Source: Candidatus Gallionella acididurans (GTDB taxonomy: Bacteria > Pseudomonadota > Gammaproteobacteria > Burkholderiales > Gallionellaceae). From it: DNA of 64,000 nt. Shown here one piece after another: positions 1-23,191 of the stretch. Position numbers and translations under genes: made by a program. Within the stretch, counting starts at the first letter, position 1; the number at the start of each line of letters is the position of its first letter. The DNA lies in contig LSLI01000007.1 of the NCBI GenBank assembly GCA_001577345.1, positions 1-64,000 of the forward strand, read 5' to 3'. The notes under the pieces were generated by a model. It was given only the letters and a program-made list of their open reading frames with translations. It was not told the DNA's origin and searched no databases.

Positions 1-133
1 CGACAAGGTGCACATCAATTTTACCCGACCCGATAACGGCGACATCTGCTTCGAATGCACCGTGTCCGGCAACAAGGTATTATCCGGCACTTCAAGTATG
101 CGCCACGTATCCGCCGGGGAATCACCATTGTGA
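1..133 (+). CDS. Hot-dog 3-hydroxyacyl-ACP dehydratase of the aryl polyene cluster (3' end only)
   Basis: Only the last 43 codons are in the window, reading in frame 2 from the left edge to a TGA at 131-133. The visible peptide contains KVHINFTRPDNGD and CTVSGNKVLS, which fit the terminal beta-strands of FabA/FabZ-like hot-dog dehydratases found in aryl polyene clusters (ApeI type). Its stop overlaps the GTG start of the next gene by 4 nt, so the two genes are probably translationally coupled. The assignment rests on a short peptide plus context. A thioesterase of the same fold is the main alternative. Confidence 0.5.
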   Translation, partial: DKVHINFTRPDNGDICFECTVSGNKVLSGTSSMRHVSAGESPL

Positions 134-1017
134 GCCAGGAGTGGACCACCCGTCCCGAGCGCAGCAATGTTCTCGTCATCCGTTTTATCGTATGGTTTGC
201 ACTTGCCGCGGGACGATACGCGTCACGCGCCCTGCTTTTCCCGATTTGCCTTTACTTCATCATCGTTTCCGCAAAGGCGCGTGCCGCCTCCCGTGATTAC
301 TTGAATCGGGCATTGCAGCGTCGCGCCAATCTGCGGGATATTTTCCGGCATTACTTTTTCTTTGCATCGACCATTCTCGACCGGATATTTCTGCTCGACG
401 GACGAAACGAATTATTCGAAATTCATGTGCAAGGGAAGGAGTTCTTAAAAGAAGCCATCTCCGGTGACCGCGGCTGCCTTCTTATCGGTGCCCATATGGG
501 CAGCTTCGAAATTTTGCATACTGTCAGCCTCGACCATGGATACGCTGAAACCAGCATGGCCATGTATCAGGAAAACGCACGCAAACTGAACACCGTCCTC
601 GGGAGCATCAATCCCCGGCGCAACCCGTCCGTGATCTCCCTTGGAAAAATCGACTCCATGCTGAAAATTCGCGAGGCGCTTGATGATGGCGAAACTGTCG
701 GCATGCTGGCGGATCGTGCCGTATCGGGGGAAAAGATGATCCGCTGCAATTTCCTGGGTGGGACAGCTGAATTCCCCTCCGGCCCGTTTCGTCTTGCGGC
801 GATCCTCGACCGCCCTATCATCCTGATGTTTGGCCTGTATCAGGGCGGGAACCGTTATAATGTTTACCTGGAGCGCCTGACCAGACTGCCGCCCGGGCAG
901 AATCCGGGACGCGATGAAGAAATAGAACAATCCGTAAAACAATTCGCCGGGCGGCTGGAACATTACTGCATCTTATCCCCCTATAACTGGTTTAATTTCT
1001 ATGATATCTGGAAATAA
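130..1017 (+). CDS. LpxL/HtrB-like lysophospholipid acyltransferase (aryl polyene cluster)
   Basis: This is a 295-aa inner-membrane acyltransferase of the lipid A lauroyl/myristoyl transferase family. An N-terminal hydrophobic anchor (about residues 15-45) is followed by the HMGSFE motif, the His-x4-Glu catalytic signature, and an ADRAVSGE segment typical of the family. An upstream ATG at 55 is possible, but the GTG at 130 overlaps the preceding stop as GTGA, and the hydrophobic N-terminus follows it directly, so I chose GTG. Homologues sit in aryl polyene clusters, where they are thought to attach the polyene acyl chain to a lipid or sugar carrier. The precise acceptor is not visible from sequence. 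Confidence 0.85.
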   Translation: MSQEWTTRPERSNVLVIRFIVWFALAAGRYASRALLFPICLYFIIVSAKARAASRDYLNRALQRRANLRDIFRHYFFFASTILDRIFLLDGRNELFEIHVQGKEFLKEAISGDRGCLLIGAHMGSFEILHTVSLDHGYAETSMAMYQENARKLNTVLGSINPRRNPSVISLGKIDSMLKIREALDDGETVGMLADRAVSGEKMIRCNFLGGTAEFPSGPFRLAAILDRPIILMFGLYQGGNRYNVYLERLTRLPPGQNPGRDEEIEQSVKQFAGRLEHYCILSPYNWFNFYDIWK

Positions 1018-1135
1018 TCCCGACTTGATTTTGCCAGCCCAAGCCACCGTACACGCACGAATCACGCATGGCGTAAAAACACCCTCTCCGGCAAGCTGCA
1101 ACAAACCCGGTGCGTATCCAAGGAAATGGGGAGGG

Positions 1136-1762
1136 TTGGATGACTTCCTTCCGGCTGACAACCGGCCGCGCCCGTTTTTCTGGGTGTTTCTGGCAGTTTT
1201 TTTCGGCCTGGCGTTCCAACCGGGTTACGCAGCCGAACCGGAAAGCGATACATGGAACATCAATGCGCTGATGCACGGGCTTGCCCAGGTAAAGCACTCC
1301 AAGGCCACCTTTGTCGAACACAAATATTTGAGCATACTGAAAACCCCGCTGAAATATTCCGGAACACTCACCTACAGCGCCCCGGGACATCTTGAAAAAC
1401 TCACGCTGCTTCCCAAACCGGAAAGCCTGATACTGGATCAGGATATTCTTGTAGTGCAACGCGGCGAGCCCGTCCAGAAACGCACCCTGTCCTTGCAGGA
1501 CTACCCGGCGATCTGGGCATTCGTCGAAAGTTTTCGCTCCACGCTGGCGGGAGACATAGCCACTCTCGACCGCTTTTACAAGGTATCCATGGAAGGCCAG
1601 CCGAATCAATGGCTGCTCATCCTGCGGCCGATCGATCCGAAGATGAAAAACCTGGTCAGCGAAATCCGCATCACTGGCAGCCTTGCGCAAATCGGCACCA
1701 TCGAGATCCGCGAACCGGGCGGTGACTATTCGGTAATGAACATCAGCAAGGATGATTCGTGA
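1136..1762 (+). CDS. LolA-like periplasmic lipoprotein/lipid carrier (aryl polyene cluster)
   Basis: A 208-aa exported protein of the LolA fold. A hydrophobic signal sequence (FFWVFLAVFFGLAF) is followed by a likely signal peptidase site near GYAA, then a beta-rich domain with LKYSGTLTYSAPGHLEKLT, a LolA hallmark. The longest reading starts at ATG 1001 inside the upstream gene, but that would put 60 extra residues before the signal peptide. TTG 1136, with AAGGA about 11 nt upstream, gives a normal LolA length, so I prefer it without certainty. The stop overlaps the GTG of the MMPL gene. LolA paralogues are regular members of aryl polyene clusters and probably chaperone the lipid-like product across the periplasm with the MMPL exporter. 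Confidence 0.75.
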   Translation: MDDFLPADNRPRPFFWVFLAVFFGLAFQPGYAAEPESDTWNINALMHGLAQVKHSKATFVEHKYLSILKTPLKYSGTLTYSAPGHLEKLTLLPKPESLILDQDILVVQRGEPVQKRTLSLQDYPAIWAFVESFRSTLAGDIATLDRFYKVSMEGQPNQWLLILRPIDPKMKNLVSEIRITGSLAQIGTIEIREPGGDYSVMNISKDDS

Positions 1763-4113
1763 AGCGTTTCAGCCGGTCCCTGTTTAGCCGGCATGCCGCT
1801 GTTGCGGCCTGGGTATTTTTCCTGGCGCTGTGCATTTTCGTTGTCAGCAGAGTTCAGGTCGGCGCCGACCTCAGCGCATTCCTGCCGCGCACACCAACCC
1901 CGGCGCAACAGTTGCTCAGCGAACAATTGCGTGACGGCGTTTTTTCCCGGCTGATCCTGATCGGCATTGAAGGGGGCACGCCGGATGCCTTGAGTGCAGC
2001 CAGCAAACAGCTCGCGCAGCAATTGCGCAATGAAAAACAGTTCTCGCTGGTCAATAATGGCGATGAAAGCAGCGTTGCCAAAGACCAGTCTTTCCTGCTT
2101 GAAAACCGCTACCTTCTGAGCTCCGCAGTCACCCCCGAACATTTCACTCCCGGCGGACTGCATGCAGAACTCGAGAATTCACTGCAGTTGCTGGGCTCCC
2201 CTGCCGGATTCATGGTCAAACAACTCATTCCCCGCGACCCCAGCGGGGAACTGCTGCATCTGCTTGAAGGATTTTCCGGCCAGAGCCAGCCATCTGCGCA
2301 TAATGGTGTGTGGGTATCGCATGACGGCAGGCGCGCGTTGCTGCTCGCACAAACCAGGGCGCCCGGATTTGACATTGATGCCCAGCAAAAAACCATCGCG
2401 CTGATTAATACCCGTTTTGCCGACATTGCACGCGGCGCGAAATTTTCCGGCTTGCGTCTGGTGCTGAGCGGTCCCGGCGTGTTTTCGGTGCATGCGCGAG
2501 ACCATATCAAGGATGTCGCATTCATTTTTTCCATCATCACTTCGATTCTTGTCAGCATCCTGCTGTTGCTGGTCTATCGTTCCTGGCGCGTGCTCGCCTT
2601 GTCGCTGCTTCCCGTGGCCAGCGGTGCACTGGCGGGCATCGCGGCAGTCAGCGTGGGTTACGGTGTGGTTTACGGAGTAACGCTGGGATTTGGCATCACA
2701 CTGATCGGTGAAGCGGTGGACTACGCGATCTTTTTCTTCACCCGCCTTGCTCCCGGCAAACCGCCAAACATGGCGCTCGACAGGATTTGGCCCACCCTGC
2801 GCCTGGGCGTAATGACCACGATCTGCGGTTTCAGCCCGATGTTCCTGGCGAATTTTCCGGGCTTCGCGCAATTGGGGCTGTTCTCGGTAGTAGGCCTGAT
2901 CGTAGCCGTGCTGGTCACCCGCTGGGTGCTGCCCAGCCTGGTACCAGACAATTTTTCCACCATTACACCCGCACGTCTTTCCGCCCGGCTGATGGATCTG
3001 ATACGGCAAGCTCCGCGGCTGCGCCCTGTGGTATTGACAGCAGTACTGGTCGCGGTTCTGTCCATCGTTTTCCACCGCGGGCCGGCGTGGAGCGACAGCC
3101 TCTCCAGTCTCAGTCCGTTGCTGGAGGAGGACAAGCGCCTGGACGAATCGTTGCGGCATGATATAGGCGCGCCGGATGTGGGCTATATGGTGATCGTCGG
3201 CGGCAATAGCCGCGAGGATGCGCTGGTGAACAGTGAAGCGTTGGGCGCCCGGCTTGATGTCCTGGTCAGCAGCCATGCCTTGTCCGGTTACGATACACCC
3301 GCCCGCTACCTGCCGAGCGACAAGGCGCAGCGCGCCCGACTGGCCGCATTGCCCGCAGCGGAAAAGTTGCAGGCCAACCTGAGGCAGTCACTCGCCGGCC
3401 TGCCGTTCCGCGCGAACCTGTTCGCGCCCTTCCTCAGCGATGTCGCCAACGCCCGCAAGCATCCGCTGCTTACACCCGATGATTTGCGCGGTACCAACCT
3501 CGGACTCCAGACTGAAAGCTTACTGGTTCAGCGCGGCAACGGCTGGGCAGCCATCCTGCCGCTGCGGGGCGTGACCGATATCACGACTGTACAGCGCGCA
3601 ATCACCCGGCAGGGTGGGAACATCGTATTGCTGGACTTGCAGCGCGAAAGCAATCTGCTCTACCAGACCTACGTTGATGAAGCCATAAAATTATCCAGTT
3701 TCGGCGCCCTGGCGATCATACTGCTGCTGCTGATCAACCTGCGCTCGGTGCGCCGCGTGGCAATGGTGTTGCTGCCATTGGCCGCCGCGGTAATCATCAC
3801 CACGGCCATTGTGCTGGCCAGCGGCCAGAAGCTGCTGATCTTCCACCTGATCGGCTTGCTGCTGGCGGTTGCGGTGGGTTCCAACTACTCGCTGTTCTTT
3901 GATCGCGAAAGTTATTCCGGACAGGATGACGACAGCAACCGGCGCACCATGCTGTCGCTGCTGGTTGCCAACATCTCAACCAGCATCGCATTCGGCATGC
4001 TGGGATTTTCCGGCGTCCCGCTGCTGGCAGCGATAGGCGAGACAGTAGCGTTGGGTGCGTTCCTGAGCCTGCTGTTCTCCGCCGTCCTGATGGGGCAAAA
4101 AGCGGTCCGCTGA
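1759..4113 (+). CDS. MMPL/RND-family exporter (aryl polyene cluster)
   Basis: A 784-aa inner-membrane transporter with the two-fold RND layout. TM1 (about residues 12-32) is followed by a large periplasmic loop and a first membrane bundle at about 255-395 containing GEAVDYAIFF, the MMPL Asp-Tyr motif. A second periplasmic loop and a second bundle from about 635 to the end complete the repeat. The GTG start overlaps the stop of the LolA-like gene (GTGA), so coupling is likely. Aryl polyene and related lipid-pigment loci carry such proteins as exporters acting with the LolA-like carrier. It is the last gene of this plus-strand run. A short GC-rich dyad at 4119-4133 follows but lacks a T-tract. 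Confidence 0.9.
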   Translation: MKRFSRSLFSRHAAVAAWVFFLALCIFVVSRVQVGADLSAFLPRTPTPAQQLLSEQLRDGVFSRLILIGIEGGTPDALSAASKQLAQQLRNEKQFSLVNNGDESSVAKDQSFLLENRYLLSSAVTPEHFTPGGLHAELENSLQLLGSPAGFMVKQLIPRDPSGELLHLLEGFSGQSQPSAHNGVWVSHDGRRALLLAQTRAPGFDIDAQQKTIALINTRFADIARGAKFSGLRLVLSGPGVFSVHARDHIKDVAFIFSIITSILVSILLLLVYRSWRVLALSLLPVASGALAGIAAVSVGYGVVYGVTLGFGITLIGEAVDYAIFFFTRLAPGKPPNMALDRIWPTLRLGVMTTICGFSPMFLANFPGFAQLGLFSVVGLIVAVLVTRWVLPSLVPDNFSTITPARLSARLMDLIRQAPRLRPVVLTAVLVAVLSIVFHRGPAWSDSLSSLSPLLEEDKRLDESLRHDIGAPDVGYMVIVGGNSREDALVNSEALGARLDVLVSSHALSGYDTPARYLPSDKAQRARLAALPAAEKLQANLRQSLAGLPFRANLFAPFLSDVANARKHPLLTPDDLRGTNLGLQTESLLVQRGNGWAAILPLRGVTDITTVQRAITRQGGNIVLLDLQRESNLLYQTYVDEAIKLSSFGALAIILLLLINLRSVRRVAMVLLPLAAAVIITTAIVLASGQKLLIFHLIGLLLAVAVGSNYSLFFDRESYSGQDDDSNRRTMLSLLVANISTSIAFGMLGFSGVPLLAAIGETVALGAFLSLLFSAVLMGQKAVR

Positions 4114-4215: not shown

Positions 4216-5478
4216 TTATTCCTGCGCAGCGACGGAGCGGAACGCAAGCACCGCATTGCTGCCGCCGAAGGCGAATGAATTGGACAATGCTGCCCGTATC
4301 GGCACATTGCTCCTTCCCAGCCCCAGAACATGATCCACTCCCGCACAATCCGCCCCGATTTCAGTCACATTGGCGGTGGGAGGGGCAGCCTGACGGTAGA
4401 GCGCAAGAGCGGTAATTAGCGCCTCCATCGCGCCGGCCGCCCCCAATGAATGGCCGTGCATGGATTTCGTGGAGCTCACCGCCAGTTTGCCGGCATGCCC
4501 GCCGAACACGGATTTTATCGATTGAATCTCGATGGCATCTCCCTCGACGGTCGATGTACCGTGGGCATTCACATAGTCAATTTCATCGGGATGCAAACCG
4601 CCGTCTTGCAGCGCCGCAACGATGGCGCGCGACTGGCCCGCGCTGTCCGGCCGGGCTATATGGGTTCGATCACAGGTATTGCCATAACCTACGATCTCGG
4701 CATAAATGCGGGCTCCGCGGGCGCGCGCGTGATCCCAATTCTCTATCACCAGTGCGGCGGCGCCTTCTGCCAGGGTAAGCCCGGAGCGGTTTTTGGAAAA
4801 CGGGCGGGTGGCACGGTAAGCTGTCGCCTCATCCCCGTCTGACAAGACCCGCATCGCCTGCCAGGCACGTATGACGCCGTAGGACAATGGTGCCTCGGAG
4901 CCTCCCGCGAGCATCAGATTGATCCTGCCCTCGCGTATCAACCTAAAGGCATCGCCGATCGCTATCGACGAGGAAGCACAGGCTACCGTGCTGGTGACAC
5001 ACGGCCCCCCCAGCCCCAGCTGTATCGCAATATGGGATGCGGCCGAGTTGTTCATTGCCAGCACAACCGACAGGGGGGAAACTTTCTCCTTGTTTTCGAA
5101 ATAAAGTGTCTGGTAACCGCGTTCGATGGTCAACGATCCGCCGGAGCCGGTTCCCCAGCTCACCCCGTAATCATCCCGGTTGGCGGGTTTGGCAAGGCCG
5201 CTGTCCTGCCATGCGGACAAGGCGGAGGCCACCGCAAAATGGCTGAACCGGTCCATGGCATTCGCCAACGGCGGCCCCAGGGTCTCAATCGGATTGAAAT
5301 GGCTGCATGCGACCAGCGGCAATGCCAATGGCCGCGGGCTGTTGCCCAGGGTGTGATAACGGATCGCGGATTCGCCGCGCATGATGCGGGAGAAAAAATC
5401 CGCCACATCCCCTTCCCCGTATGGGTTGATCAATCCCAGGCCTGTGATCGCTACACGATGTCTTTTCACAACCGGCAA
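4216..5478 (-). CDS. Beta-ketoacyl-ACP synthase (FabF/ApeR-like)
   Basis: A 420-aa condensing enzyme with a complete Cys-His-His triad: Cys167 in TVACASSS, His306 in NAHGTST and His343 in GHSLGAAG. It should catalyse decarboxylative Claisen condensation of malonyl-ACP onto the growing polyene. It lies 1 nt downstream of an ACP gene on the same strand, and a PAP2-family gene precedes both, giving a three-gene minus-strand unit inside a mostly plus-strand cluster. A second, different ketosynthase with its chain-length factor is at 9.2-11.3 kb. Aryl polyene systems use one ketosynthase with the chain-length factor for elongation and a second (ApeR-like) enzyme. Which role this one has is inferred from family resemblance only. 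Confidence 0.9.
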   Translation of the reverse strand: MPVVKRHRVAITGLGLINPYGEGDVADFFSRIMRGESAIRYHTLGNSPRPLALPLVACSHFNPIETLGPPLANAMDRFSHFAVASALSAWQDSGLAKPANRDDYGVSWGTGSGGSLTIERGYQTLYFENKEKVSPLSVVLAMNNSAASHIAIQLGLGGPCVTSTVACASSSIAIGDAFRLIREGRINLMLAGGSEAPLSYGVIRAWQAMRVLSDGDEATAYRATRPFSKNRSGLTLAEGAAALVIENWDHARARGARIYAEIVGYGNTCDRTHIARPDSAGQSRAIVAALQDGGLHPDEIDYVNAHGTSTVEGDAIEIQSIKSVFGGHAGKLAVSSTKSMHGHSLGAAGAMEALITALALYRQAAPPTANVTEIGADCAGVDHVLGLGRSNVPIRAALSNSFAFGGSNAVLAFRSVAAQE

Positions 5479-5479
5479 T

Positions 5480-5743
5480 TTATTTTATTGCCTGGCGGCT
5501 TCTGATTTCTTTTAATTGCTGGAGCAATTCGCCGACCGTCTTGGGTGGAGGGATATCCGTGGGCACGGATATGCCGGTCTTGTCCTCGAACTCGAACAGC
5601 AATTCGACCTGCATAAGAGAATCAATGCCCAAATCCGTCAAGGTTGCCTCGGGCACGATCTTCTCTGTTTGCGCGGGACCGATCCGGTCCTTGAGAAAAT
5701 TCCGTATCAACTCGAGGTCGTTTTTTTCGTTTTCGTGAGGCAT
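5480..5743 (-). CDS. Acyl carrier protein
   Basis: An 87-aa acyl carrier protein. The helix II motif LGIDSLMQVEL holds the phosphopantetheine attachment site at Ser42. A good ribosome binding site (AGGAGC, 8 nt before ATG) supports the start. It is immediately upstream of a ketosynthase gene on the same strand and is probably the dedicated carrier for polyene chain assembly, separate from the housekeeping fatty-acid ACP. Aryl polyene clusters usually have two ACPs. The second is not in this window and may lie left of position 1. Confidence 0.93.
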   Translation of the reverse strand: MPHENEKNDLELIRNFLKDRIGPAQTEKIVPEATLTDLGIDSLMQVELLFEFEDKTGISVPTDIPPPKTVGELLQQLKEIRSRQAIK

Positions 5744-5837
5744 AAACCAAAGCTCCTATAGTTTTTCTGAATCCGGCGTAGACAGGAAGTTTTTATTAAA
5801 AATCAAGGCATGATACTACATCATCCATATGCCCCCA

Positions 5838-6620
5838 TTATGACTCGCGCCGCGGCTCAATTTTCTCTGGAAGCCGGTTCCGGATTGGCCAAAATGATGG
5901 CCGGTTTAGCGACAGGGTCGCAGCCAGGGCACCCAGCACAATCCCGGCAAGCATATCAACCGCAACATGCTGCTTGGTCGCAAGAGTCGAGTATGCGATG
6001 CCCGCGCACCACAACCAGTTGGATATGCGCACCACACGCGGAGCACCCACCTCCAGCAACTGCCGGCCAAGCCAAGCCGCGGAGAAGACCGCTGTCGCCA
6101 CGTGGAGGGAGGGACACGCATTTCCGGCGGCATCCACGCCCTTGAGCATGGAAAAACCGTAGCTGTTTGCCCAATCAATATTTGCCGGAGGTACCGCGGT
6201 AGGCCACAACAGAAAACAGGCCAAACCCGCCAGGCACAGGCCACCAACAGCCCAGCCGTAATTGATCAATTCGCGCCGGGTCGAAAACAGCGCCGGGGGC
6301 AGGGATACATACAACCACAGCGACACATACAAAAATATCGAATAAGGATGGAACCCGACGGCGTTATCCAGTGCAGTGACCGGCATTACGGTCACCGCGA
6401 AAACAGGATGTTTCAGAAGGTAAATATAGCCGGTAAAAAAAACCAGCATAAAAAGCGTGATGCCGGATGTTTTAAGAAAAAAATGGCTGCGCATTCTGGC
6501 CAGAATTTGAATGTGCCACGGAACTGTCTGGCCGGGGAATTGATTGGGGAATATTTTCATGCTGGAAGGCAATGCATTCATTAAGCGCATCAATGGCGAT
6601 CTGTTGCCGATATATAGCAC
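5838..6620 (-). CDS. PAP2-family membrane phosphatase/transferase
   Basis: A 260-aa multi-spanning protein with about five or six hydrophobic segments. The PAP2 motifs are partly recognisable: CPSLHVAT matches the PSxH motif, and STLATKQHVAVD matches the third motif with catalytic His and Asp. The usual SR dipeptide is replaced by ST, a pattern seen in the AUR1/inositol-phosphorylceramide synthase branch. The canonical KxxxxxxRP motif is not obvious. It precedes the ACP and ketosynthase genes on the same strand, so it may act on a lipid-linked intermediate of the polyene. The start is uncertain: ATGs at 6620, 6587 and 6560 are in frame and none has a clear Shine-Dalgarno. Confidence 0.75.
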   Translation of the reverse strand: MLYIGNRSPLMRLMNALPSSMKIFPNQFPGQTVPWHIQILARMRSHFFLKTSGITLFMLVFFTGYIYLLKHPVFAVTVMPVTALDNAVGFHPYSIFLYVSLWLYVSLPPALFSTRRELINYGWAVGGLCLAGLACFLLWPTAVPPANIDWANSYGFSMLKGVDAAGNACPSLHVATAVFSAAWLGRQLLEVGAPRVVRISNWLWCAGIAYSTLATKQHVAVDMLAGIVLGALAATLSLNRPSFWPIRNRLPEKIEPRRES

Positions 6621-7506: not shown

Positions 7507-8388
7507 ATGCTTCCCGACGCACCCTCCAATCTTGCGACAAAGGCAGGGCATCAGACCGCTGAAAATATTGTTCAGTTACCGTTGTGGCGTGCCAGCCCCG
7601 TACTGCTACTCAGCACGCCTTTGCATTTGTTTTGCCTGGCGCTTGTCTTGCTAGTCCCCTCCTTGTGGCGATGGGCGCTAAGTGCCGTGATAGCGAATCA
7701 CGTCCTGATCCTGGCATCGGTAATCTTGTCGCCGCGGGGCCGCCTGCTCGGGCCGAACATGACACGCCTTCCACTAGCGGCCGCACAACGCGGTGAGGTG
7801 GCACTTACCTTTGATGACGGGCCGGATCCACTGGTCACGCCCCAAGTGCTTGATCTGCTCGACCGTTACGGAGCCAAGGCCAGCTTCTTCTGCATAGGCA
7901 ACAAAGTCCTGGCATACCCGGAGCTGACGCGTGAAATCATCCGGCGCGGACACAGCGTGGAAAACCATACCAACAGCCACCCCCATGCTTTTGCGCTGTT
8001 CGGACCGGCGGCCATGCGGCGGGAAATCGATTCGGCCCAAACAGCGATCTGCGAGACTACCGGCATCGCTCCGTCATTCTTTCGTGCGCCCATGGGTTTC
8101 CGCAACCCCCTGCTTGCACCGGTGGTTGCGCGCACCGGAATGCACTATATCAGCTGGACTCGGCGCGGTTATGACACCGTTGCGAAATCTGCCGAGCAGG
8201 TTTTGCAAAGGCTGCAGCGCGGCCTTGCGGCCGGCGACATATTGCTATTGCACGACGGCCGTTCGATCCGGACCCGCAATGATTCGCCGCTAATTCTCGA
8301 GGTGCTGCCGCGCTTGCTTGAACATCTCAGTACGCTCGACCTGAAACCCGTTGCACTGCAAACCGCCGGCCATGTCGGTAAATTTTAA
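7507..8388 (+). CDS. NodB-type polysaccharide deacetylase family protein
   Basis: A 293-aa protein with two N-terminal hydrophobic segments (about residues 30-80) and a NodB domain. The motifs are intact: TFDDGPD (metal and catalytic Asp), HTNSH (metal-binding His pair), FRAPMGF and LLLHDG. It should remove N- or O-acetyl groups from a sugar-containing substrate, anchored at the membrane. It overlaps the following methyltransferase gene by 17 nt and lies upstream of the ketosynthase block. Deacetylases of this kind occur in some aryl polyene clusters, fitting with a glycosylated product, but the substrate here is inferred. Confidence 0.85.
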   Translation: MLPDAPSNLATKAGHQTAENIVQLPLWRASPVLLLSTPLHLFCLALVLLVPSLWRWALSAVIANHVLILASVILSPRGRLLGPNMTRLPLAAAQRGEVALTFDDGPDPLVTPQVLDLLDRYGAKASFFCIGNKVLAYPELTREIIRRGHSVENHTNSHPHAFALFGPAAMRREIDSAQTAICETTGIAPSFFRAPMGFRNPLLAPVVARTGMHYISWTRRGYDTVAKSAEQVLQRLQRGLAAGDILLLHDGRSIRTRNDSPLILEVLPRLLEHLSTLDLKPVALQTAGHVGKF

Positions 8389-9082: not shown

Positions 9083-9229
9083 GGATTGCTTTTGTGATGG
9101 ACAGACCCAAACCTTTCCCGCAGTTGCAGCTGTCGAAATAAATAGGGCAGCTGCGGTGCAAATGTGTCATTAGCAGCCAATATCAAACTTCATTTTGTTA
9201 ATATGCGCGCCTATCATCGCAGGCAGTTC

Positions 9230-15078: not shown

Positions 15079-16290
15079 TCACTTCGACCTGAAGATGATC
15101 TCTTTCATGCGCTCCAGTTTCGGCGACACCACAGGCACGGTCAGCATGGTGCTGGCGACTGCCATCAGCAGCAGCGCGGTGAAAGTCGCGTTGGTGATGA
15201 TGCCCTTGTCCAGCAGCACGTTGGCGAAGATGATCATGATCAGCGCCTTGGTTTGCAGCAGCCAGCCTATCAACGATGCTTCTCCGGGCTGCCATTTGAG
15301 CATCTTTCCGGCGATATGAGTGCCGAGCAGTTTCCCCGAGACCGAGGCAAGTAGCAATGCCACTGCGGCGATGAATACCGCCGCGCCGCCCACGGCCCAG
15401 TTGGTGCGCAAACCGGTGCTGAGAAAAAACACCGGCATGATCACCAGCAGCACGTGATGGCGCAGCATATCCATCTGCTTCCGGTCGAACCAGTCACCAT
15501 CCATGACTGCTCCGGCCAGAAATGAACCGACCATGAAGTGCAGCCCCGACCAGTCGGCGCCGAAACCGCACACGGCCAGCCAGATCAGGCCCACGTACCA
15601 GCGGTCGCGCCCTGGCAGCCACCTCATCAGCTTGCGGAAAAAATATCCGGCCACAGCAAAAGCCAGCAGGAACCCGGCCTGCCTGCCGATGCGCTGCCAG
15701 TCCATCAGGATCAGCGCTAGCACCCCCCAGATCGCGACATCGTCCATGCTGGCATATCGCAGGATGCGCTGGCCCACGGGCTGGCGCAGGATTTCCAGTT
15801 TCTCCATCAGCAAGATCAGGATAGGCAGCGCCGTGACGGCACAGGCCATGCCGACGCCCATGACGAATTGCCACGGCATCCCGTTCGGCCCGATCCAGCC
15901 GTCATACATCAACATGCCGGCGGCGGCGATGCAGCCGAACAGCAATGGAGTCCCCAGCGCCAAGCCCGCAGTGAGGCCGCTTTCAATGCGGTGTTCCCAG
16001 GTCTTGCGCAAATCCAGTTCGATGCCGGCGATCCAGACGAACAGCATCACCGCCCACCAGGCGATGCCATTCAATAACTGGATCACCGGCGCAGTAAAGA
16101 CGAAGTTGTAGTAATCGGGAAAGGCCGCGCCCAGGATACCCGGGCCCAGCAGGATGCCGGTAATGATCTGCACCACCACCAGCGGCGCGAAATACTCGGT
16201 CTTGCCCATCCTCCAGATCAGATAGGGAATGGCAAATATCAGCGTCATCGCAATCAGGAATATTTCCGTGGTGCTCATTGTTGCGTGCAT
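15079..16290 (-). CDS. Cation:proton antiporter (CPA family, Na+/H+ exchanger domain)
   Basis: A 403-aa inner-membrane protein with about 11-12 hydrophobic segments and no cytoplasmic regulatory domain. The motif ASMDDVAIW holds the paired aspartates that bind the cation in Kef/NhaP-like antiporters, and GIELDLRKTWEHR is the usual TM3-TM4 region. It converges with the MFS gene; the 228-bp gap between them shows only weak dyads. It is 69 bp downstream of the glycosyltransferase on the same strand, so co-transcription is possible. A role in pigment synthesis is not evident. Confidence 0.82.
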   Translation of the reverse strand: MHATMSTTEIFLIAMTLIFAIPYLIWRMGKTEYFAPLVVVQIITGILLGPGILGAAFPDYYNFVFTAPVIQLLNGIAWWAVMLFVWIAGIELDLRKTWEHRIESGLTAGLALGTPLLFGCIAAAGMLMYDGWIGPNGMPWQFVMGVGMACAVTALPILILLMEKLEILRQPVGQRILRYASMDDVAIWGVLALILMDWQRIGRQAGFLLAFAVAGYFFRKLMRWLPGRDRWYVGLIWLAVCGFGADWSGLHFMVGSFLAGAVMDGDWFDRKQMDMLRHHVLLVIMPVFFLSTGLRTNWAVGGAAVFIAAVALLLASVSGKLLGTHIAGKMLKWQPGEASLIGWLLQTKALIMIIFANVLLDKGIITNATFTALLLMAVASTMLTVPVVSPKLERMKEIIFRSK

Positions 16291-16359: not shown

Positions 16360-17139
16360 TTACCCGCCCGCAGCGAACTTCCGCCACAACAACAGCGGCA
16401 AGCGCAGCACAAAGCCGCACATCAGGCGGATGTGCATCCACGTCAGCAGCGTGTTGTCGCGCAAATACCTGAAGTGCGATACACCGCCCTCCGCGGCGCT
16501 GAAATAGCGCACCGGTGAATCAAGATTGACCGGCTTGACACCCAGCCAGCACAAACGCACCGCGACTTCGGGATCGAAATCGAAGCGGCGCATCCACGGG
16601 CTGCGTTCCATGATCCGGCGCAGCGGCCGGACCGGATAGACGCGAAAACCGAACAGCGAATCCCCTATCCCGGCTCCCAGCGTTTCCAGATTGGCCCACC
16701 AGTTTGAGACCTTGCGCCCGTTCACGCGCAATGCCGGCGCGCTGGCATCGAATACCGGTTTGCCCAGCACGGCTGCCAGTGGATTTTTTTGCGACACCGA
16801 CATGAATTCCGGAATCATCGCGGCGGGGTGCTGCCCGTCGGCATCCATCGTGAGCACATGCGTATAGCCCGCCGCATCGGCCTGTTGCAGGCCATGCAGC
16901 ACGGCCGCGCCCTTGCCCCGGTTATGCGGCAGCACGAACACTCTCAGCTCCGGGGTATTCGCCGCCAGCGCCTGCAGGGTTTCCGCCGTGCCATCGGTGC
17001 TGCCGTCGACCACCACCCATACCGGCTGCCAGACAGCCAGCGCGAGACGCGCGGTTTCCACGACTTTGGGACCGGTGTTATAGGACGGAATGAGAACTAG
17101 GTGGGAATGAGATCGGGCCAACGCGATATTCCTGTTCAA
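16360..17139 (-). CDS. Family 2 glycosyltransferase (aryl polyene cluster type)
   Basis: A 259-aa GT-A glycosyltransferase. PSYNTGPKV, VVDGSTDGT and the DXD-type TMDADGQHP are clear, and FGFRVYPV precedes a C-terminal amphipathic or membrane-associated stretch (LMCGFVLRLPLLLW). Dolichyl-phosphate-mannose-synthase-like enzymes of this size are regular members of aryl polyene clusters. It lies 27 bp downstream of a PlsC-like acyltransferase on the same strand. The likely role is attaching a sugar to the polyene or its lipid carrier. The donor sugar is unknown. Confidence 0.87.
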   Translation of the reverse strand: MNRNIALARSHSHLVLIPSYNTGPKVVETARLALAVWQPVWVVVDGSTDGTAETLQALAANTPELRVFVLPHNRGKGAAVLHGLQQADAAGYTHVLTMDADGQHPAAMIPEFMSVSQKNPLAAVLGKPVFDASAPALRVNGRKVSNWWANLETLGAGIGDSLFGFRVYPVRPLRRIMERSPWMRRFDFDPEVAVRLCWLGVKPVNLDSPVRYFSAAEGGVSHFRYLRDNTLLTWMHIRLMCGFVLRLPLLLWRKFAAGG

Positions 17140-17166: not shown

Positions 17167-17958
17167 TTAATCATGCTTCCTTGCCGCAAGCTGTTCCCTG
17201 AAATAATTTTCCAGCTCGTCAACAAATGATTTCGTGTCTTCGCCGACCATGAACCGCTTGCCCAGCGTTACCCGGAAGGTCAGCGGGAATTGCGGTTTTT
17301 TCCACAGCGGCCAGCCCTTGCCGAGAAACGCCGAACTGTATTCGATAAATACCGTTTGCACCGGCACACCCGCCCTGCGGGCAATCAGCGGGAAAGCCCC
17401 GGTGAATCTGTTAACCGGCTGCACCGTGGTGCGGGTACCCTCCGGGAAAATCAGCAGCTGGCTGCCCTGCTTCAATTCGGCAACTGCGGCTCTGACCATG
17501 TTGCCGGTCGAATCATTGCGTATATATCCCGCCAGACGCGCACAACCGCCGAAAAGAACGTTGTCCTGTATTTCTTTCTTCATGATGCAGACGATATTTG
17601 TCAGGCGCGAACCGGCCAGCACCACATCGATCAGACCCGGATGGTTGGGCACGATGACGATGGATTCGTCGCTGGCCAACGCGTCGAGCGCGGACAGATC
17701 GCACTTGAAAAGACCGGTACTTTCGATAAAGGCGATGTACGGCCAGAAGATGCAGGTGATGAGCAAACGGCCGAGGCGCGCGCCAAATCGCCTGGGCAAC
17801 AGCTGGTACAACACCGCCGCGATGACGGAAAACAAAATACCTCCCAGGCCGAAAACAGCGAGCGAAACATATAGCGCAAAATATTCGTATAAAGTCCGCA
17901 GCCCGGCGACCAGCACTTCCAAACCGCGTTTAACCAAGTTGATCATGACAAATCCCAA
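17167..17958 (-). CDS. PlsC-like lysophospholipid acyltransferase
   Basis: A 263-aa membrane acyltransferase. An N-terminal hydrophobic hairpin (about residues 20-60) precedes the catalytic His-x4-Asp motif in NHPGLID and the substrate-binding FPEGTRT motif. A TTG at 17958 with GGAG 4 nt upstream gives the listed start; ATG 17946 is the alternative. It is the first of a pair with the glycosyltransferase. A PlsC-like and an LpxL-like acyltransferase in one locus fits loading of the polyene onto a lipid-type anchor in the outer membrane. It is unlikely to be the housekeeping PlsC. Confidence 0.85.
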   Translation of the reverse strand: MGFVMINLVKRGLEVLVAGLRTLYEYFALYVSLAVFGLGGILFSVIAAVLYQLLPRRFGARLGRLLITCIFWPYIAFIESTGLFKCDLSALDALASDESIVIVPNHPGLIDVVLAGSRLTNIVCIMKKEIQDNVLFGGCARLAGYIRNDSTGNMVRAAVAELKQGSQLLIFPEGTRTTVQPVNRFTGAFPLIARRAGVPVQTVFIEYSSAFLGKGWPLWKKPQFPLTFRVTLGKRFMVGEDTKSFVDELENYFREQLAARKHD

Positions 17959-17981: not shown

Positions 17982-18815
17982 TCATTTACCCACTTCAACC
18001 CTGTTCGGAGATTCCGCAAGTATCCATGAAATGGCAAAGCCGACAGTGGCCGAATCATTCTGCTTAACCAGGGGACTCTGTTCAAATACCGCCCCGCGGA
18101 GCATATCCCATTTCACGAATCCGCCAAACCAGTAACCGGGAAAACGCTTGGACAGAGAAACGGTCAACTGGCTGCCCGAGTAACCGCCACCGGCAGTATA
18201 AGCCGGGCGATCCGGGCGGGCAAAACCCGGCGCGACACTATAAAAATACTGGTTATACCGCCTGTCGGAATAAATCGCACCTGCAGCCATCCCCAAATCC
18301 CATCCGGGTTGACCCAGCACGTCATGCACATCAAGATTCAGCTGCGGCTGAAACATCAAGCCAATATCGTGCAAGTAGGAAAAATCCGTGGCGACAGCAA
18401 AACGCAACGGCAAACGCAATTCCAGCTGCACATTACCCGACTCCCGTTTGTGCAGAAAGATATTCAGTGCCGGACCGATTTCAAACGCCGGATCAAGGTT
18501 GGGCATGCCCTGCCGCGCCTGGTTATCGCGGACCGGCACCGAACCGTTGACACTCACGTCCAGTTCCGCCGCACCGGCCTCAAGGAACAGGCCGCGAGTC
18601 CGCTCGTGATCGATTTTCAGGAAGTCTCCGTTATATACCGCATAGGGTACCGGAAGGAAATAAACCTGCCTCTGGTTTGAGCCGCGGTATTGCGGAAGAT
18701 CGATATAGGCCAGGCCCGCCCCAAGCTCCCACTGCGGAACCTGCTCCGCGATTGCCGGATAGGCCATCAGCATGTTCGCCGCAACTGCGACGAGAATATT
18801 TTTTGGCAGTTTCAT
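17982..18815 (-). CDS. MipA/OmpV family outer-membrane beta-barrel protein
   Basis: A 277-aa exported protein. The signal peptide ends near AIAEQ. The mature sequence has alternating beta-strands typical of MipA/OmpV: WELGAGLAYIDLPQYRGS, FLPVPYAVYNGDFL, and a C-terminal strand region before the end. Members of this family are outer-membrane barrels, with roles in murein-enzyme scaffolding or small-molecule permeation. It lies 23 bp upstream of the PlsC-like gene and 25 bp downstream of the chorismatase, so it is probably part of the same minus-strand transcript. A role in displaying or exporting the pigment is inference. Confidence 0.82.
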   Translation of the reverse strand: MKLPKNILVAVAANMLMAYPAIAEQVPQWELGAGLAYIDLPQYRGSNQRQVYFLPVPYAVYNGDFLKIDHERTRGLFLEAGAAELDVSVNGSVPVRDNQARQGMPNLDPAFEIGPALNIFLHKRESGNVQLELRLPLRFAVATDFSYLHDIGLMFQPQLNLDVHDVLGQPGWDLGMAAGAIYSDRRYNQYFYSVAPGFARPDRPAYTAGGGYSGSQLTVSLSKRFPGYWFGGFVKWDMLRGAVFEQSPLVKQNDSATVGFAISWILAESPNRVEVGK

Positions 18816-18840: not shown

Positions 18841-19860
18841 TCACCCAGCCCGGTTCCAGCAGACCGCCTCTATCTCCACCAGCAGGTCGGTGCGGCAAAT
18901 GTCGGCCTGGAGAACAATCAAATCGGCCGGGGTTCCGAATTCCCTCTGAATGACGCCCATCACTTCCGCAAAGTCTTCGGCATTGCGCACGTATACCTTC
19001 AGCGCCATGTCGGTTGCAAAATTCACCGGCGCGAATCCCTTAAGGATAGCCTGCCCAATCACGGCGCGAATATTTTCCAGTGTTTCCAGTGTTTGCAGAC
19101 CCACCGATGCCGGGTGCACGGTTTCGTGACCCAAAATACTGGCCGTGCCGGAAATGAATAAAGTCTGCCCCTGTTCCCGGAATGCCAATGTAGCCCTTGA
19201 AAAAGTCGGGCTGCGCGGCCCGTATTGCGTCGGGTAGTTATAAGCGCTGACCTGGCGCGGGTTTTCTATTTTCATTCCGGCAGTACGCGCGGCAAGAAAA
19301 TAAATTGCCAGTCCGCCCCCGTGACTGCCCAGCGCGCAGGCTGCCGGCGAATCCTCGATTTTTGCCTGGTAATGCACAAAAGCCTCGTGGCGGCCGAGAC
19401 TGAAACTGCGGTAGCGCTCCAGGCCGTTTTCCATGGCATTGATCTCCGGAAAATAATTCCAGACCCTGATCAGGCTGGGATAGTCGCCACGCTGCAAGAA
19501 TTCGAATATGCCGGAAAATGCGCGAAATGTTGCATCGCTGAAATTTCCGGCCTGATCATTCTTCAGCAGGATGCGCCCGAAGAAAATATCTTCGTTGCCG
19601 CTACCGGCAATCAAGTCGTCCTGATACCGGCTCACCGGCTTGCCGGTTGTCCATACTTCATAGGCGGCCCCGCTTCCCAGTACCGGGGTATCGACCCACA
19701 GCACCGGAAAACCTGACTTTGTCGCCGCAACGGGATTGCTGCCGAAGCCAATCACACATGCAACCCTGTCGGCGCGCTGCGCGAGGTACGCATCGGCCTC
19801 CCCGGACAGGAGATACCTGAGTGTTACAGCCCGGTCTTGATTGTCTTCATATTCCGTCAT
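18841..19860 (-). CDS. Chorismatase / 3-hydroxybenzoate synthase-like (XanB2/Hyg5 family)
   Basis: A 339-aa protein from ATG 19860, which overlaps the halogenase stop as ATGA. A longer frame to 19914 is less likely. Conserved blocks of the FkbO/Hyg5/XanB2 chorismatase family are visible: RVWNYFPEIN, ENGLERYRSFSLGR, PAACALGSHGGG, YGPRSPTFSRA and FISGTASILGHETVH. These enzymes split chorismate to pyruvate plus hydroxybenzoate or a dihydroxycyclohexadiene acid. In Xanthomonas the XanB2 enzyme supplies the hydroxybenzoate starter of xanthomonadin. Here it would make the aryl head group of the polyene. Whether it yields 3- or 4-hydroxybenzoate or a diol cannot be decided by eye. Confidence 0.88.
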   Translation of the reverse strand: MTEYEDNQDRAVTLRYLLSGEADAYLAQRADRVACVIGFGSNPVAATKSGFPVLWVDTPVLGSGAAYEVWTTGKPVSRYQDDLIAGSGNEDIFFGRILLKNDQAGNFSDATFRAFSGIFEFLQRGDYPSLIRVWNYFPEINAMENGLERYRSFSLGRHEAFVHYQAKIEDSPAACALGSHGGGLAIYFLAARTAGMKIENPRQVSAYNYPTQYGPRSPTFSRATLAFREQGQTLFISGTASILGHETVHPASVGLQTLETLENIRAVIGQAILKGFAPVNFATDMALKVYVRNAEDFAEVMGVIQREFGTPADLIVLQADICRTDLLVEIEAVCWNRAG

Positions 19861-21209
19861 GGTGCGGTCAAATTTGCAGCAACTTCCCTGATGGCACGTT
19901 TGCGGCGCTGCCATGCCCGGTAACTCTCCCGGAACATGGCGATGCTTTGCAGGTAATAAATAAACTTGAAGATTGCCAGCCTGAACCGTATCGGGGTGTC
20001 ACCGAAGAGATCGCCGGTCAGCACCGAAAGCAGCGTTTCCTGCAGGCGGAATTTATTGCTGGGATGCATGAACATGTCACGCATTACCGGCGTGGTCATG
20101 CGGTAAATTATCCAGGAAAAAATTTTCAGGCCATGCCGGGAAGTCCGGTCGAAATTCCTTAAGGCGTGTGATGCTGCGGCGGGATTGCGCAGGCATTGGT
20201 CGATAGTCTCCGCGCCTGAAAATGCGCTGTTCATGGCCAGCAAAACACCGGAGGAAAACACCGGGTCGATAAAGGCAAAGGCGTCACCCAGCATCAGGTA
20301 GTTTGACCCCGAGCTGCGGCTTGAAGCATAAGAAAAATTACCTGTCGCAGAAACCGGGGACGCCCGCGTGGCTTCCTTCAGCCGCTCTGCCAGGGGCGGG
20401 CAAAGCGCGATGGTGTCGGAAAAGAATTGCTCAACGGGGACTTTGCGCGCCTTCATATAATAGGGCCAGCATACCGCGCCCACGCTGACCGAGCCGTCCG
20501 CCAGCGGAATGTACCAGAACCAGCCGTGTTCGAACCAGAACAGGGAAATATTCCCCTCCTCCCTGCCGGTGCGCCTCGCGGCACCCTCGTAGTGTGCATA
20601 GATAGCCGCACTGGCGTGCTTCCTGTTGCGTTGCTTGGTCCCGAACTGGTTCGCCAGCAGCGTGTCCCGCCCCGAGGCATCAACCACAAAACGCGGATGC
20701 CATTCGGTAATCTGCCCTTCCTCGCTCAGCGAAGTGACTATCGCCCGCTGAGCGCGCGGGAATTCGGTCATTGTGACTTTGCAGCCCTCGCGGGCGCGCG
20801 CCCCTTTGGTGACGGCGTTCTTGAACAATATCTCATCGAGATCAGAGCGGCGCACTTCATAAGAATGAGGAAACGATTTGTCCAGCGCCTGTCCAAAATC
20901 GAAATAGCTTGCCTGGTCATGATCCGGCGAAATGAACTCCGCGCCGTATTTGAGCATCCCGATGGCGGCAACCTGTTCAGCGACACCCAGACGCTCAAAC
21001 AAGGGGAGGTTTAATGGCAATAGCGACTCTCCGATATGAAATCGCGGGTGGCGCGATTTTTCCAGAATAACGACGTCGTAACCCCGCTCAGCCAGCAAAG
21101 CCGCGACGGTTGATCCGGCAGGGCCCCCGCCAACGACCAGTATGTCGGGAGCAGTGTCGTTGCGCTGGTGTATGGCTTCCTGCCGCATAGAGGCTTCGTG
21201 GTCTGTCAT
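19857..21209 (-). CDS. Flavin-dependent halogenase-like protein
   Basis: A 450-aa FAD enzyme. The Rossmann motif VVGGGPAGST is at residues 25-34. HIGESLLP at about 58-65 and the halogenase-type WxWxIP motif (WFWYIP, 230-235) are present. LKYGAEF places Lys87 where the catalytic lysine of phenolic flavin halogenases lies. LGDAFAFIDPVFSSGV is the second FAD-binding block. It should halogenate an aromatic ring, probably the aryl head or a carrier-bound intermediate. Brominated xanthomonadins are the obvious precedent. It precedes the chorismatase with a 4-nt overlap, so the two are likely made together. A related flavin monooxygenase without halide activity remains possible. Confidence 0.82.
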   Translation of the reverse strand: MTDHEASMRQEAIHQRNDTAPDILVVGGGPAGSTVAALLAERGYDVVILEKSRHPRFHIGESLLPLNLPLFERLGVAEQVAAIGMLKYGAEFISPDHDQASYFDFGQALDKSFPHSYEVRRSDLDEILFKNAVTKGARAREGCKVTMTEFPRAQRAIVTSLSEEGQITEWHPRFVVDASGRDTLLANQFGTKQRNRKHASAAIYAHYEGAARRTGREEGNISLFWFEHGWFWYIPLADGSVSVGAVCWPYYMKARKVPVEQFFSDTIALCPPLAERLKEATRASPVSATGNFSYASSRSSGSNYLMLGDAFAFIDPVFSSGVLLAMNSAFSGAETIDQCLRNPAAASHALRNFDRTSRHGLKIFSWIIYRMTTPVMRDMFMHPSNKFRLQETLLSVLTGDLFGDTPIRFRLAIFKFIYYLQSIAMFRESYRAWQRRKRAIREVAANLTAP

Positions 21210-21485: not shown

Positions 21486-21908
21486 ATGAAAAACTTCTGG
21501 ATGCTTATTCTGCTCTGCATCGGGATGGCGGGTTTTTCAATGTGCCGCGCGGATACCACTCCGCCCGTTGAGGTAATTTATCAGGCGACCATCTCCGCAG
21601 ATGGCGTGCAGCATGTGCGGATCGAGGGGGGAAGTTACTTCTTCAAACCCGGCCACGTGATCGTCAAGGTGAATATACCCGTGGAACTGGCGGTCAGTAT
21701 TGAAAAGGGGTGGATACCCCACACCTTCGTCATTCAATCGCCTGCCGCTGGAATTTCGGTGGATGAAAGCCTGTCCAGCGACGCCAAAAATATTCGCTTT
21801 ACACCCACTGCCACGGGCAAATACCCTTTTTATTGCAGGAACAAACTGCTGTTTTTTGCCAGCCATCGCGAAAAAGGCATGGAAGGCGTGCTCGAGGTAG
21901 TGCAATAA
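21486..21908 (+). CDS. Periplasmic cupredoxin-like protein
   Basis: A 140-aa exported protein with a signal peptide ending near residue 22 and a single cupredoxin fold. Candidate copper ligands are His79 (WIPHTF), Cys117 (YPFYC), His127 and Met132 (SHREKGMEG). The Cys-to-His spacing of ten residues is longer than in plastocyanin or azurin, so the active site may be unusual. Strong ribosome binding site. It faces away from the halogenase gene. It may carry electrons or copper in the periplasm; any link to pigment oxidation is speculative. Confidence 0.75.
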   Translation: MKNFWMLILLCIGMAGFSMCRADTTPPVEVIYQATISADGVQHVRIEGGSYFFKPGHVIVKVNIPVELAVSIEKGWIPHTFVIQSPAAGISVDESLSSDAKNIRFTPTATGKYPFYCRNKLLFFASHREKGMEGVLEVVQ

Positions 21909-22078
21909 GTCATGGGTCCGTCCATAAACCCCGGGACCCCTGCCGGAGGAACTGACAGTCCGTCCTCCTGTGCTGAACCGCAAGGAAAATTTTTTTCTGC
22001 ATGCCATCCATATGCCGCATTGCCAAACTTGACCACGCTTTGCATTTCGGCCCACTCCGAATTTCCGGAGGCAAGCCA

Positions 22079-22702
22079 GTGCTATCTGCCCTGATGCTTG
22101 CCGCAACACTCACCGGCACCCCCCCAGACCCGCTGGCCGGCGCCATCGAGCAATATCGCGCAGTCACTTCCTACAGTGTCACGATACATTCCATGCATGC
22201 GGACGGCGAGGAGAATATCCGGTACTACTACAAAAAACCCGGTTTCGTGCGCATGGAATTCATCCGCCCGCATGCCGGCGCGGTGTTGATCTACAATCCC
22301 CACACGAGAAAAGTTCGCCTGTGGCCATTCGGCGTCAAGCATTTCCCGGAACTTGATTTGAGCCCCGACAATCCGCTGATCGGGAATAGCCGCGGCCAGC
22401 GCGTGGACCGCTCGGATGTCGGCGTCCTGCTGGAAAATGCCCGCGCATTGCGTGATGGCGGTAAACTCGATTCGTCTGGCCCTGACATCATAGCCGGCAG
22501 GAAAGCTGTTTATTTTGCCGTAACCGGGGCGGGGAATTTCGAGATTGGCGGCGTGCACCGGTATGAACTATGGCTGGACCCGGAAAGCCTGTTTCCTCTC
22601 CGGGTGGTCAGTCGCGACCTGCGGAATGCGGTCATCGAAACCGTAACGATGGACGCTGCGAAAATCAACACTGCGCTGCCGGATTCACTCTTCAATCCAT
22701 AA
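22079..22702 (+). CDS. Exported LolA-like / DUF1571-type protein
   Basis: A 207-aa protein starting at GTG 22079, which has GGAGG 7 nt upstream. The frame is open from ATG 22001, but the GTG puts a short hydrophobic signal segment at the N-terminus. The body resembles lipoprotein-sorting-type domains: YYYKKPGFVRMEFIRPHAGA, then VLIYNPHTRKVRLWPFG and a late ELWLDPESLFPLRVVSRD strand pair. It is the middle gene of a cupredoxin / LolA-like / SRPBCC run. It may bind a hydrophobic ligand in the periplasm, perhaps the pigment. Confidence 0.68.
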   Translation: MLSALMLAATLTGTPPDPLAGAIEQYRAVTSYSVTIHSMHADGEENIRYYYKKPGFVRMEFIRPHAGAVLIYNPHTRKVRLWPFGVKHFPELDLSPDNPLIGNSRGQRVDRSDVGVLLENARALRDGGKLDSSGPDIIAGRKAVYFAVTGAGNFEIGGVHRYELWLDPESLFPLRVVSRDLRNAVIETVTMDAAKINTALPDSLFNP

Positions 22703-22714
22703 ACAGGGGAAAAG

Positions 22715-23191
22715 ATGAAGTACCATTTTGTCACCGTCTGGCGCATCGAAGCCCCGCTCGAGGCAGTCTGCGAAGCCATCTACCATTCCCTGAACTGGCC
22801 GCTGTGGTGGCGCAATGTGGAAAGGGTCGAGGAACTGATCCGGGGAGATGAGCAAGGCATCGGCAGCGTACGCCGGTATTCCTGGAAGGGGCGCCTTCCA
22901 TACCGGCTCACTTTTGACATTCACGTTATGCACGTCGAACCCCTTGCCGCAATCGAAGGCATCGCCAGCGGCGATGTGGAAGGCCAGGGTCGCTGGTCGT
23001 TCTCCGCCGAGGGAACGGTATCCATCGTGCGCTTCGAGTGGCAGGTGTACACCACGCCGGCATGGATGAATTTTATGGCGCTGTTTGCGCGCCCGCTGAT
23101 CAAGTGGAACCATGACAGCGTCATGCGGCAGGGTGGCAAGGCACTGGCGCGCATGCTCAATGCACGGCTTGTCGACATCGCGCATAATTGA
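22715..23191 (+). CDS. SRPBCC (START/polyketide cyclase-like) protein
   Basis: A 158-aa single-domain protein without signal peptide. The N-terminus (VWRIEAPLEAVCEAIYHS) and spaced Trp residues (LNWPLWWRNVERVEEL) fit the SRPBCC fold, which forms a hydrophobic ligand cavity, and a long C-terminal helix ends the protein. It begins 12 nt after the LolA-like gene, so they are probably co-transcribed. Family members bind lipids, polyketides or isoprenoids. Here it could be a polyketide-binding or cyclase-like protein, but the family is too broad to say. Confidence 0.72.
   Translation: MKYHFVTVWRIEAPLEAVCEAIYHSLNWPLWWRNVERVEELIRGDEQGIGSVRRYSWKGRLPYRLTFDIHVMHVEPLAAIEGIASGDVEGQGRWSFSAEGTVSIVRFEWQVYTTPAWMNFMALFARPLIKWNHDSVMRQGGKALARMLNARLVDIAHN

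Follow-up and report, generated by a model that had tools for sequence, protein, structure and literature searches.

A Gallionella gene cluster on two contigs, probably for an aryl polyene of the arcuflavin/xanthomonadin type, with putative dialkylresorcinol genes and a predicted flavin-dependent halogenase

The window analysed here, a stretch of 64,000 nucleotides from Candidatus Gallionella acididurans, covers positions 1 to 64,000 of contig C7 (LSLI01000007.1) in a genome assembly of 3.43 Mb and 316 contigs, and its opening 23,191 bases hold what is very probably an aryl-polyene gene cluster of the arcuflavin/xanthomonadin type, divided between two contigs and linked to dialkylresorcinol (DAR) genes. 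As judged from the encoded protein families, its product is likely an arcuflavin-like polyene-dialkylresorcinol hybrid. The cluster is not new in kind and belongs to the published arc/xan-type clusters, since PMC3949708 reports this kind for Dechloromonas aromatica, Variovorax paradoxus and, there together with DAR genes, Sideroxydans lithotrophicus ES-1 (Gallionellales), and since the Azoarcus gene table given there is matched. Pfam and NCBIfam scans of the open reading frames (ORFs) within bases 1-23191 (30 ORFs in the main scans) bear out the gene set that an earlier sequence-only reading had noted, with two ketosynthases (KS), a chain-length factor (CLF), an acyl carrier protein (ACP), two dehydratases and a ketoreductase (KR); the two acyltransferases, the glycosyltransferase, the LolA-like carrier and the MMPL exporter are likewise matched by Pfam. 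The aryl-polyene core of the genome comprises a KS with a half-size CLF-like partner, the KR and two dehydratases, of which the first (11244-11684) scores below the Pfam cut-off and the second is split over the two contigs, leaving a fragment in the window. In agreement with that reading, no separate enoyl reductase is seen among the 30 scanned ORFs; the KR also matches adh_short_C2, a Pfam family described as enoyl-ACP reductase, which is usual for ketoreductases of the short-chain dehydrogenase/reductase (SDR) type. The adjoining chorismatase and halogenase genes were also recovered, both by family matches, with a 4-nt overlap, ATGA, in which the halogenase gene stops and the chorismatase gene probably starts. 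Chance is no issue for these gene calls, given long ORFs well over the family cut-offs, apart from the exceptions named, and synteny in relatives.

Because the window opens at the start of contig C7, the starter ligase, a second ACP and the DAR genes lie outside it. The sequence-only reading had overlooked this, as well as the PAP2 protein, the two methyltransferases, the MFS transporter and the Na+/H+ antiporter. Contig C94 of the same genome carries the start of arcS, an ArcT-like AMP ligase (77% identical to that of the sister genome G026), an ArcU-like protein and an ACP, followed by putative DAR genes encoding a DarA-like protein, DarB, a BtrH-like protein, an ABC transporter pair and a KS. 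C94 stops inside arcS, and the first base of C7 completes the interrupted codon, after which the frame continues as in the G026 protein. In G026, contig L043 holds the ArcS gene, the AMP ligase, the ArcU-like gene and the ACP in one piece with DarA- and DarB-like genes in divergent orientation. As the ends of C94 and C7 do not overlap, we infer their join, and with it the adjacency of the aryl-ACP ligase and ACP to the window genes, from the split arcS gene. DarB scores 591.7 bits for the StlD/DarB family (cut-off 450). Its neighbour, presumably DarA as judged from position, synteny and its presumed family, occurs in 9 of 101 genomes, all within the genus, where the 101 genomes of this and later counts are the own genome and 100 relatives. 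The genes in the window are the following.

2-133, forward: C-terminal fragment of an ArcS-type dehydratase, its translation being the end of the ArcS-like protein in G026 (L043)
55-1017, forward: lipid A acyltransferase-like protein, ArcR-type (PF03279, 3.9e-12; synteny), true start probably downstream of 55
1001-1762, forward: LolA-like carrier, ArcQ-type (PF19574)
1759-4113, forward: MMPL exporter, ArcP-type (PF03176)
4216-5478, reverse: extra FabF-like ketosynthase, forming an accessory module with ACP and PAP2 (PF00109/PF02801)
5480-5743, reverse: acyl carrier protein adjoining the extra ketosynthase (PF00550)
5838-6620, reverse: PAP2-family protein (PF01569/PF14378)
7507-8388, forward: polysaccharide deacetylase-family protein, ArcN-type (PF01522; arcN in Table 1 of PMC3949708)
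8351-9082, forward: methyltransferase, ArcM-type (PF13489)
9164-10441, forward: main aryl-polyene ketosynthase, ArcK-type (NF006618, 555 bits, cut-off 407; CSSS motif)
10438-11250, forward: chain-length-factor-like half-ketosynthase, ArcJ-type, overlapping the main KS stop (PF13723; sequence)
11244-11684, forward: dehydratase, ArcI/ApeP-like (PF22817 sub-threshold, 20.8 bits, cut-off 27; synteny)
11681-12400, forward: ketoreductase (SDR), ArcH-type (PF00106)
12811-13449, forward: second methyltransferase, with no counterpart in the Azoarcus arc list
15079-16290, reverse: Na+/H+ antiporter, ArcG-type (PF00999)
16360-17139, reverse: glycosyltransferase 2, ArcE-type (PF00535; in 66 of 80 named loci)
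17167-17958, reverse: PlsC-like acyltransferase, ArcD-type (PF01553; in 65 of 80 named loci)
17982-18815, reverse: MipA-like outer-membrane protein, ArcC-type (PF06629)
18841-19860, reverse: chorismatase, ArcB/XanB2-type, predicted to supply 3-hydroxybenzoate (PF21168 over cut-off; ORF to 19914, start likelier at 19860)
19857-21209, reverse: predicted flavin-dependent halogenase, ArcA-type (PF04820; PDB matches FasV, CndH, ChlB4, Mpy16, PltA)

The closest counterpart is the arc/dar system of Azoarcus sp. BH72, with which the match was made by annotation, function by function rather than by sequence, leaving out arcL, arcW and arcX. Table 1 of PMC3949708 lists arcA-E (halogenase, chorismatase, MltA-interacting outer membrane protein, acyltransferase, glycosyltransferase), arcG (antiporter), arcH (reductase), arcI (dehydratase), arcJ (N-terminal KS domain), arcK (KS), arcM (methyltransferase), arcN (deacetylase), arcP (exporter), arcQ (LolA), arcR (acyltransferase), arcS (dehydratase), arcT (ligase) and arcV (ACP), and its dar genes include a KS, ABC transporter parts, a BtrH-like peptidase, darB and darA. 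By annotation, the window and C94 cover the functions of arcA-E, G-K, M, N, P-T and V, and dar genes A, B, E, F, I and J, including a darJ-like KS. The gene orders A-B-C-D-E-G and H-I-J-K are kept in Gallionella, where the genes of the two unlinked arc loci of Azoarcus apparently form one continuous locus. According to PMC3949708, arcK or arcT insertion mutants of Azoarcus lose the pigment, and ArcB and ArcT are active in vitro. The Xanthomonas xan cluster, as PMC3691225 and PMC3949708 describe it, has the KS, CLF-like protein, dehydratase, KR, acyltransferase, XanB2 chorismatase and halogenase in common with the window, but its brominated xanthomonadin pigments lack a DAR part. Similarly, the yellow locus of Lysobacter enzymogenes described in PMC3691225 resembles it in a type II polyketide synthase with half-size CLF, two dehydratases, KR, acyltransferase, XanB2 homologue and LolA-like carrier, but differs in lacking a halogenase and in having a non-brominated pigment. 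Among the literature matches listed for Gallionella, Sideroxydans and aryl polyenes, only PMC3949708 pairs a Gallionellaceae name with a polyene term, which is no proof of absence.

Several points weigh against assignment to the arcuflavin type. The arc likeness rests on annotation, the comparison being made without sequences of Azoarcus BH72, Sideroxydans ES-1 or Xanthomonas; arcF, darC, darG and darH are not seen in the window and C94; and the window adds to the Azoarcus set a KS-ACP-PAP2 module, the second methyltransferase and a transporter of the major facilitator superfamily (MFS). The ends of C94 and C7 share no overlapping sequence, DarB reaches 498.1 bits for resorcinol_DarB, under the stricter cut-off of 550, and the DarA-like protein has no Pfam or NCBIfam match. 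Furthermore, the arcuflavin of Azoarcus is halogen-free despite arcA, as obtained from LB with 0.5% NaCl (PMC3949708). Of the additions, the reversed FabF-like KS, ACP and PAP2 genes (4216-6620, reverse) stand between exporter and deacetylase, and the extra KS (E<=1e-150) occurs in 6 of the 101 genomes, five in the genus (own included) and one from another family. The second methyltransferase and the MFS transporter (12811-14850, forward) separate the KR from the antiporter and take the place that a halogenase of a second type has in G054; the closest NCBIfam model to this transporter, below its cut-off, is the aromatic acid/H+ symport family.

The arcuflavin-type assignment, which remains very probable, suggests the following route, all of whose reactions we infer. 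ArcB would convert chorismate to 3-hydroxybenzoate, which ArcT would load onto an ACP, and KS/CLF with KR and the two dehydratases would elongate this starter to a fully conjugated polyene, with no enoyl reductase involved. A methyltransferase would O-methylate the ring, while DarB and DarA would build the dialkylresorcinol, to be esterified to the polyene acid, and the LolA-like, MMPL, acyltransferase, glycosyltransferase and MipA proteins would deliver the pigment to the outer membrane. ArcA would act as a flavin-dependent halogenase on an ACP-bound aryl or polyenoyl intermediate, probably as optional tailoring and perhaps in dependence on bromide; halide and halogen position are thus conjectural. 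For the first step, the chorismatase scores over the PF21168 cut-off and 258.6 bits for TIGR04444, under its cut-off of 325. Its SGTAS Gly and its ICRTDLLVE Cys and Glu align with the 5ag3 chain (Hyg5 by its numbering), whereas FkbO has Ala at the first two of these positions. Given that Gly, Gly and Cys mark the 3-hydroxybenzoate type and that the Glu is catalytic in the account of PMC7170507, two of the three markers and the catalytic residue are located, although PMC3949708 cautions that the product type is not predictable from alignment alone. The view of the sequence-only reading that this is a xanthomonadin-like aryl-polyene locus with its own 3-hydroxybenzoate starter is supported by the families, the arc table, synteny, the C94 ligase and the chorismatase residues. 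The chorismatase-halogenase pairing, from which it concluded on a halogenated pigment, is not a special one, being already published as arcB-arcA (PMC3949708). An in-frame TGA considered in the chorismatases of G007 and G032 turned out to be no more than the regular terminal stop codon.

Sequence and motifs, together with the predicted fold and signs of purifying selection, assign the window gene to the flavin-dependent halogenases. In a sequence search it matched 41 PDB sequences, the best 14 of which comprise 3nix and 13 halogenases, among them FasV, CndH, Mpy16, ChlB4, CmlS, PltA, RadH, Bmp2, CtcP and PltM. When its predicted model (mean pLDDT 84.5) was compared with known folds, the 50 entries shown separated into halogenases and 3nix with Z 36.4-44.8 and monooxygenases with Z of at most 35.3; the ten best, nine halogenases and 3nix, exceed the best monooxygenase by 1.1 to 9.5 Z. 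The motifs are Lys87, WFWYIP (230-235) and FIDPVFSSG (313-321). GxGxxG is kept in 17 of 17 sequences, and Lys87, both W residues and the I and P of WxWxIP, as well as F313, D315, P316, S319 and G321 are identical in all 95 rows of a quick halogenase tree (99 family rows and three distant rows minus seven duplicates). WxWxIP is suggested in PMC5945002 to block monooxygenase action, and the Lys is described there as required for activity. Pairwise ratios of nonsynonymous to synonymous substitution (dN/dS) are 0.10-0.19 for the chorismatase-linked halogenase (four pairs), 0.12 for the second-type halogenase (one pair), 0.09-0.19 for the main KS (three pairs), 0.18-0.27 for the chorismatase (two pairs) and 0.21-0.38 for the three accessory genes (one pair each). 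PltA, Mpy16, Bmp2, ChlB4, CndH and CmlS have motifs and fold in common with the window protein at 25-32% identity in structural alignments, and several of the nearest solved halogenases act on carrier-bound substrates. Also among the closest structures is 3nix, a Cytophaga hutchinsonii protein named only as flavoprotein/dehydrogenase; that it is a polyene-pigment (flexirubin) halogenase is our guess. Among named genome records, of which the best 80 of at least 591 relatives were retained as loci, the closest are Gallionella metagenome-assembled genomes (95, 82, 80 and 79% identity), and no Xanthomonas record is among these 80. No viral contigs with halogenase relatives were found, and a plasmid search gave 22 records, none of which reached 60% identity; no annotated genes were present in the single region inspected.

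Whether such an enzyme makes the pigment halogenated is a separate matter. Arcuflavin, C41H52O4, is described in PMC3949708 as a proposed non-brominated aryl-heptaene joined to a dialkylresorcinol, so that a halogenase gene alone does not decide the product, since Azoarcus carries arcA. ArcA may be inactive, bromide-only or acting otherwise, and an ArcA restricted to bromide, in a medium poor in it, would be consistent with the presence of arcA as well as with a halogen-free arcuflavin. That the Gallionella halogenase is active and yields a brominated or chlorinated arcuflavin, which would extend rather than replace the assignment above, is somewhat favoured: every halogenase signature is kept, WxWxIP with its suggested barrier to monooxygenase action included, and purifying selection is similar to that on the core KS. 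In its favour, too, according to PMC3691225 Xanthomonas with a halogenase gene in its cluster has pigments brominated to varying degree, while Lysobacter shows neither halogenase nor a bromine isotope pattern. However, freshwater bromide is low, and the halogenase is missing or decayed in cluster-bearing relatives. The halogenated pigment proposed by the sequence-only reading is possible in view of a credible halogenase gene, and is weakened by the non-brominated product of Azoarcus with the same gene pair and by genus clusters without a halogenase match. It is improbable that ArcA-type enzymes have turned into FAD monooxygenases or enzymes of a cryptic step, giving a halogen-free product. The Azoarcus pigment would fit this, the fold is common to p-hydroxybenzoate hydroxylases (Z about 33-34), and the second NCBIfam match is the monooxygenase QhpG (150 bits, under the cut-off of 240), but the invariant Lys and WxWxIP and the higher Z of halogenases disfavour monooxygenase identity and favour a halogenase.

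The distribution of the cluster genes bears on the same question. Among the 101 genomes, the halogenase (E<=1e-40) occurs in 18, 11 of them in the genus (own included), the main KS (E<=1e-110) in 27 with 18 in the genus, and the chorismatase (E<=1e-30) in 25 with 19 in the genus. Of 19 genus members with KS and/or chorismatase, 11 have the halogenase and eight (G007, G010, G013, G018, G031, G032, G044, G047) give no match at that cut-off, single absences being soft because several genomes are incomplete. Within the fetched DNA of the best 80 loci, 74 encode one or more further arc proteins (chorismatase in 48, main KS in 44); the other six are L101, whose contig is cut at the halogenase, L129, L156, L169, L175 and L177. 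Decayed halogenase remnants and second-type halogenases were located as follows.

L085:2536-2772, reverse: decayed halogenase remnant of G013 beside an open chorismatase gene (translated DNA)
L046:9040-9587, reverse: decayed halogenase remnant of G026 beside an open chorismatase gene (translated DNA)
L032:9483-10802, forward: second-type halogenase beside KR
L043:280-1596, reverse: second-type halogenase beside KR

Upstream of the chorismatase, G013 retains an N-terminal remnant (tblastn E 4e-7, 43% over 81 residues; it scores 115, whereas the best of 200 shuffles scores 60), and what G026 retains is C-terminal (85 against a shuffle maximum of 49), with weaker traces in G010 (68 against 59) and G032 (48 against 42) and none in the translated upstream DNA of G007, G018, G031, G044 and G047. 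The remnants rest on protein comparison because none clearly matches the window halogenase as DNA (G007 30 against a shuffle maximum of 26, G032 23 against 28, G013 28 against 33). The upstream DNA of G007 and G032 resembles that of G013 (64 and 82 against 26), and these two are not alike (25 against 28). The second type, 56% identical to the window halogenase, stands beside KR in two Gallionella genomes, G054, which also has the chorismatase-linked gene, and G026. In the quick tree it falls outside the chorismatase-linked Gallionella clade and groups with the halogenase of Variovorax sp. dw_308 (L177), which has no arc match within 10 kb. A contig-cut copy in G026 (L046:1-662, forward) is 90% identical to the complete one on another contig, and hence G026 has a tandem duplicate or is a mixed-strain bin. 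In the window, no second-type remnant rose above 100 shuffles each in the gaps between KR and second methyltransferase and between MFS transporter and antiporter, or beside the cupredoxin gene. On a KS tree of the 18 genus members with main KS, several forks of which are open, the presence of any halogenase needs at least three changes, or four if G026 is scored by the chorismatase-linked site; all 27 scored rows need six, no clear departure from shuffled labels (57/500 as low). Such fewest-change counts do not separate gains from losses; the remnants alone do.

Divergent from the halogenase, cupredoxin, MucB/LolA-like and SRPBCC genes occupy 21486-23191 (forward) and are patchy in the genus; beyond them stand a RelA/SpoT gene and then a TonB-dependent receptor, ExbB and ExbD (23308-29006, forward). 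That the deacetylase, cupredoxin and SRPBCC genes define a new aryl-polyene subclass, as had been proposed, is highly improbable and was rejected. In its favour, both the window and a 95%-identical relative (L029) have the trio between halogenase and SpoT, a cupredoxin is also present in L032, whose contig then stops, and the LolA-like gene and main KS of G018 share a contig at a distance of about 3.4 kb. Against it, the deacetylase is the standard ArcN in Table 1 of PMC3949708, nothing lies between halogenase and SpoT in L030 and L031, and the LolA-like gene is found in 6/101 genomes, in G022 and G026 on contigs that lack KS, chorismatase and halogenase, and in G054 at the edge of a contig, where placement is not possible. 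The trio is thus patchy and not cluster-defining, and may or may not be tied to the pigment.

The findings place an arcuflavin-type cluster, polyene plus DAR, in an iron-oxidising Gallionella. Tentatively, and less probably than not, the genus may make a graded series of arcuflavin-like polyene-dialkylresorcinol pigments with 0, 1 or 2 halogens, in which each halogenase type would serve its own position and the chorismatase-linked gene would have been lost repeatedly, with the other cluster genes retained. If true, this would establish halogenated aryl-polyene-DAR hybrids as a new group of products. Relatives with intact, decayed and additional halogenases offer a natural series for asking if ArcA is a halogenating enzyme, which halide it uses, which position it modifies and what benefit the halogen brings.

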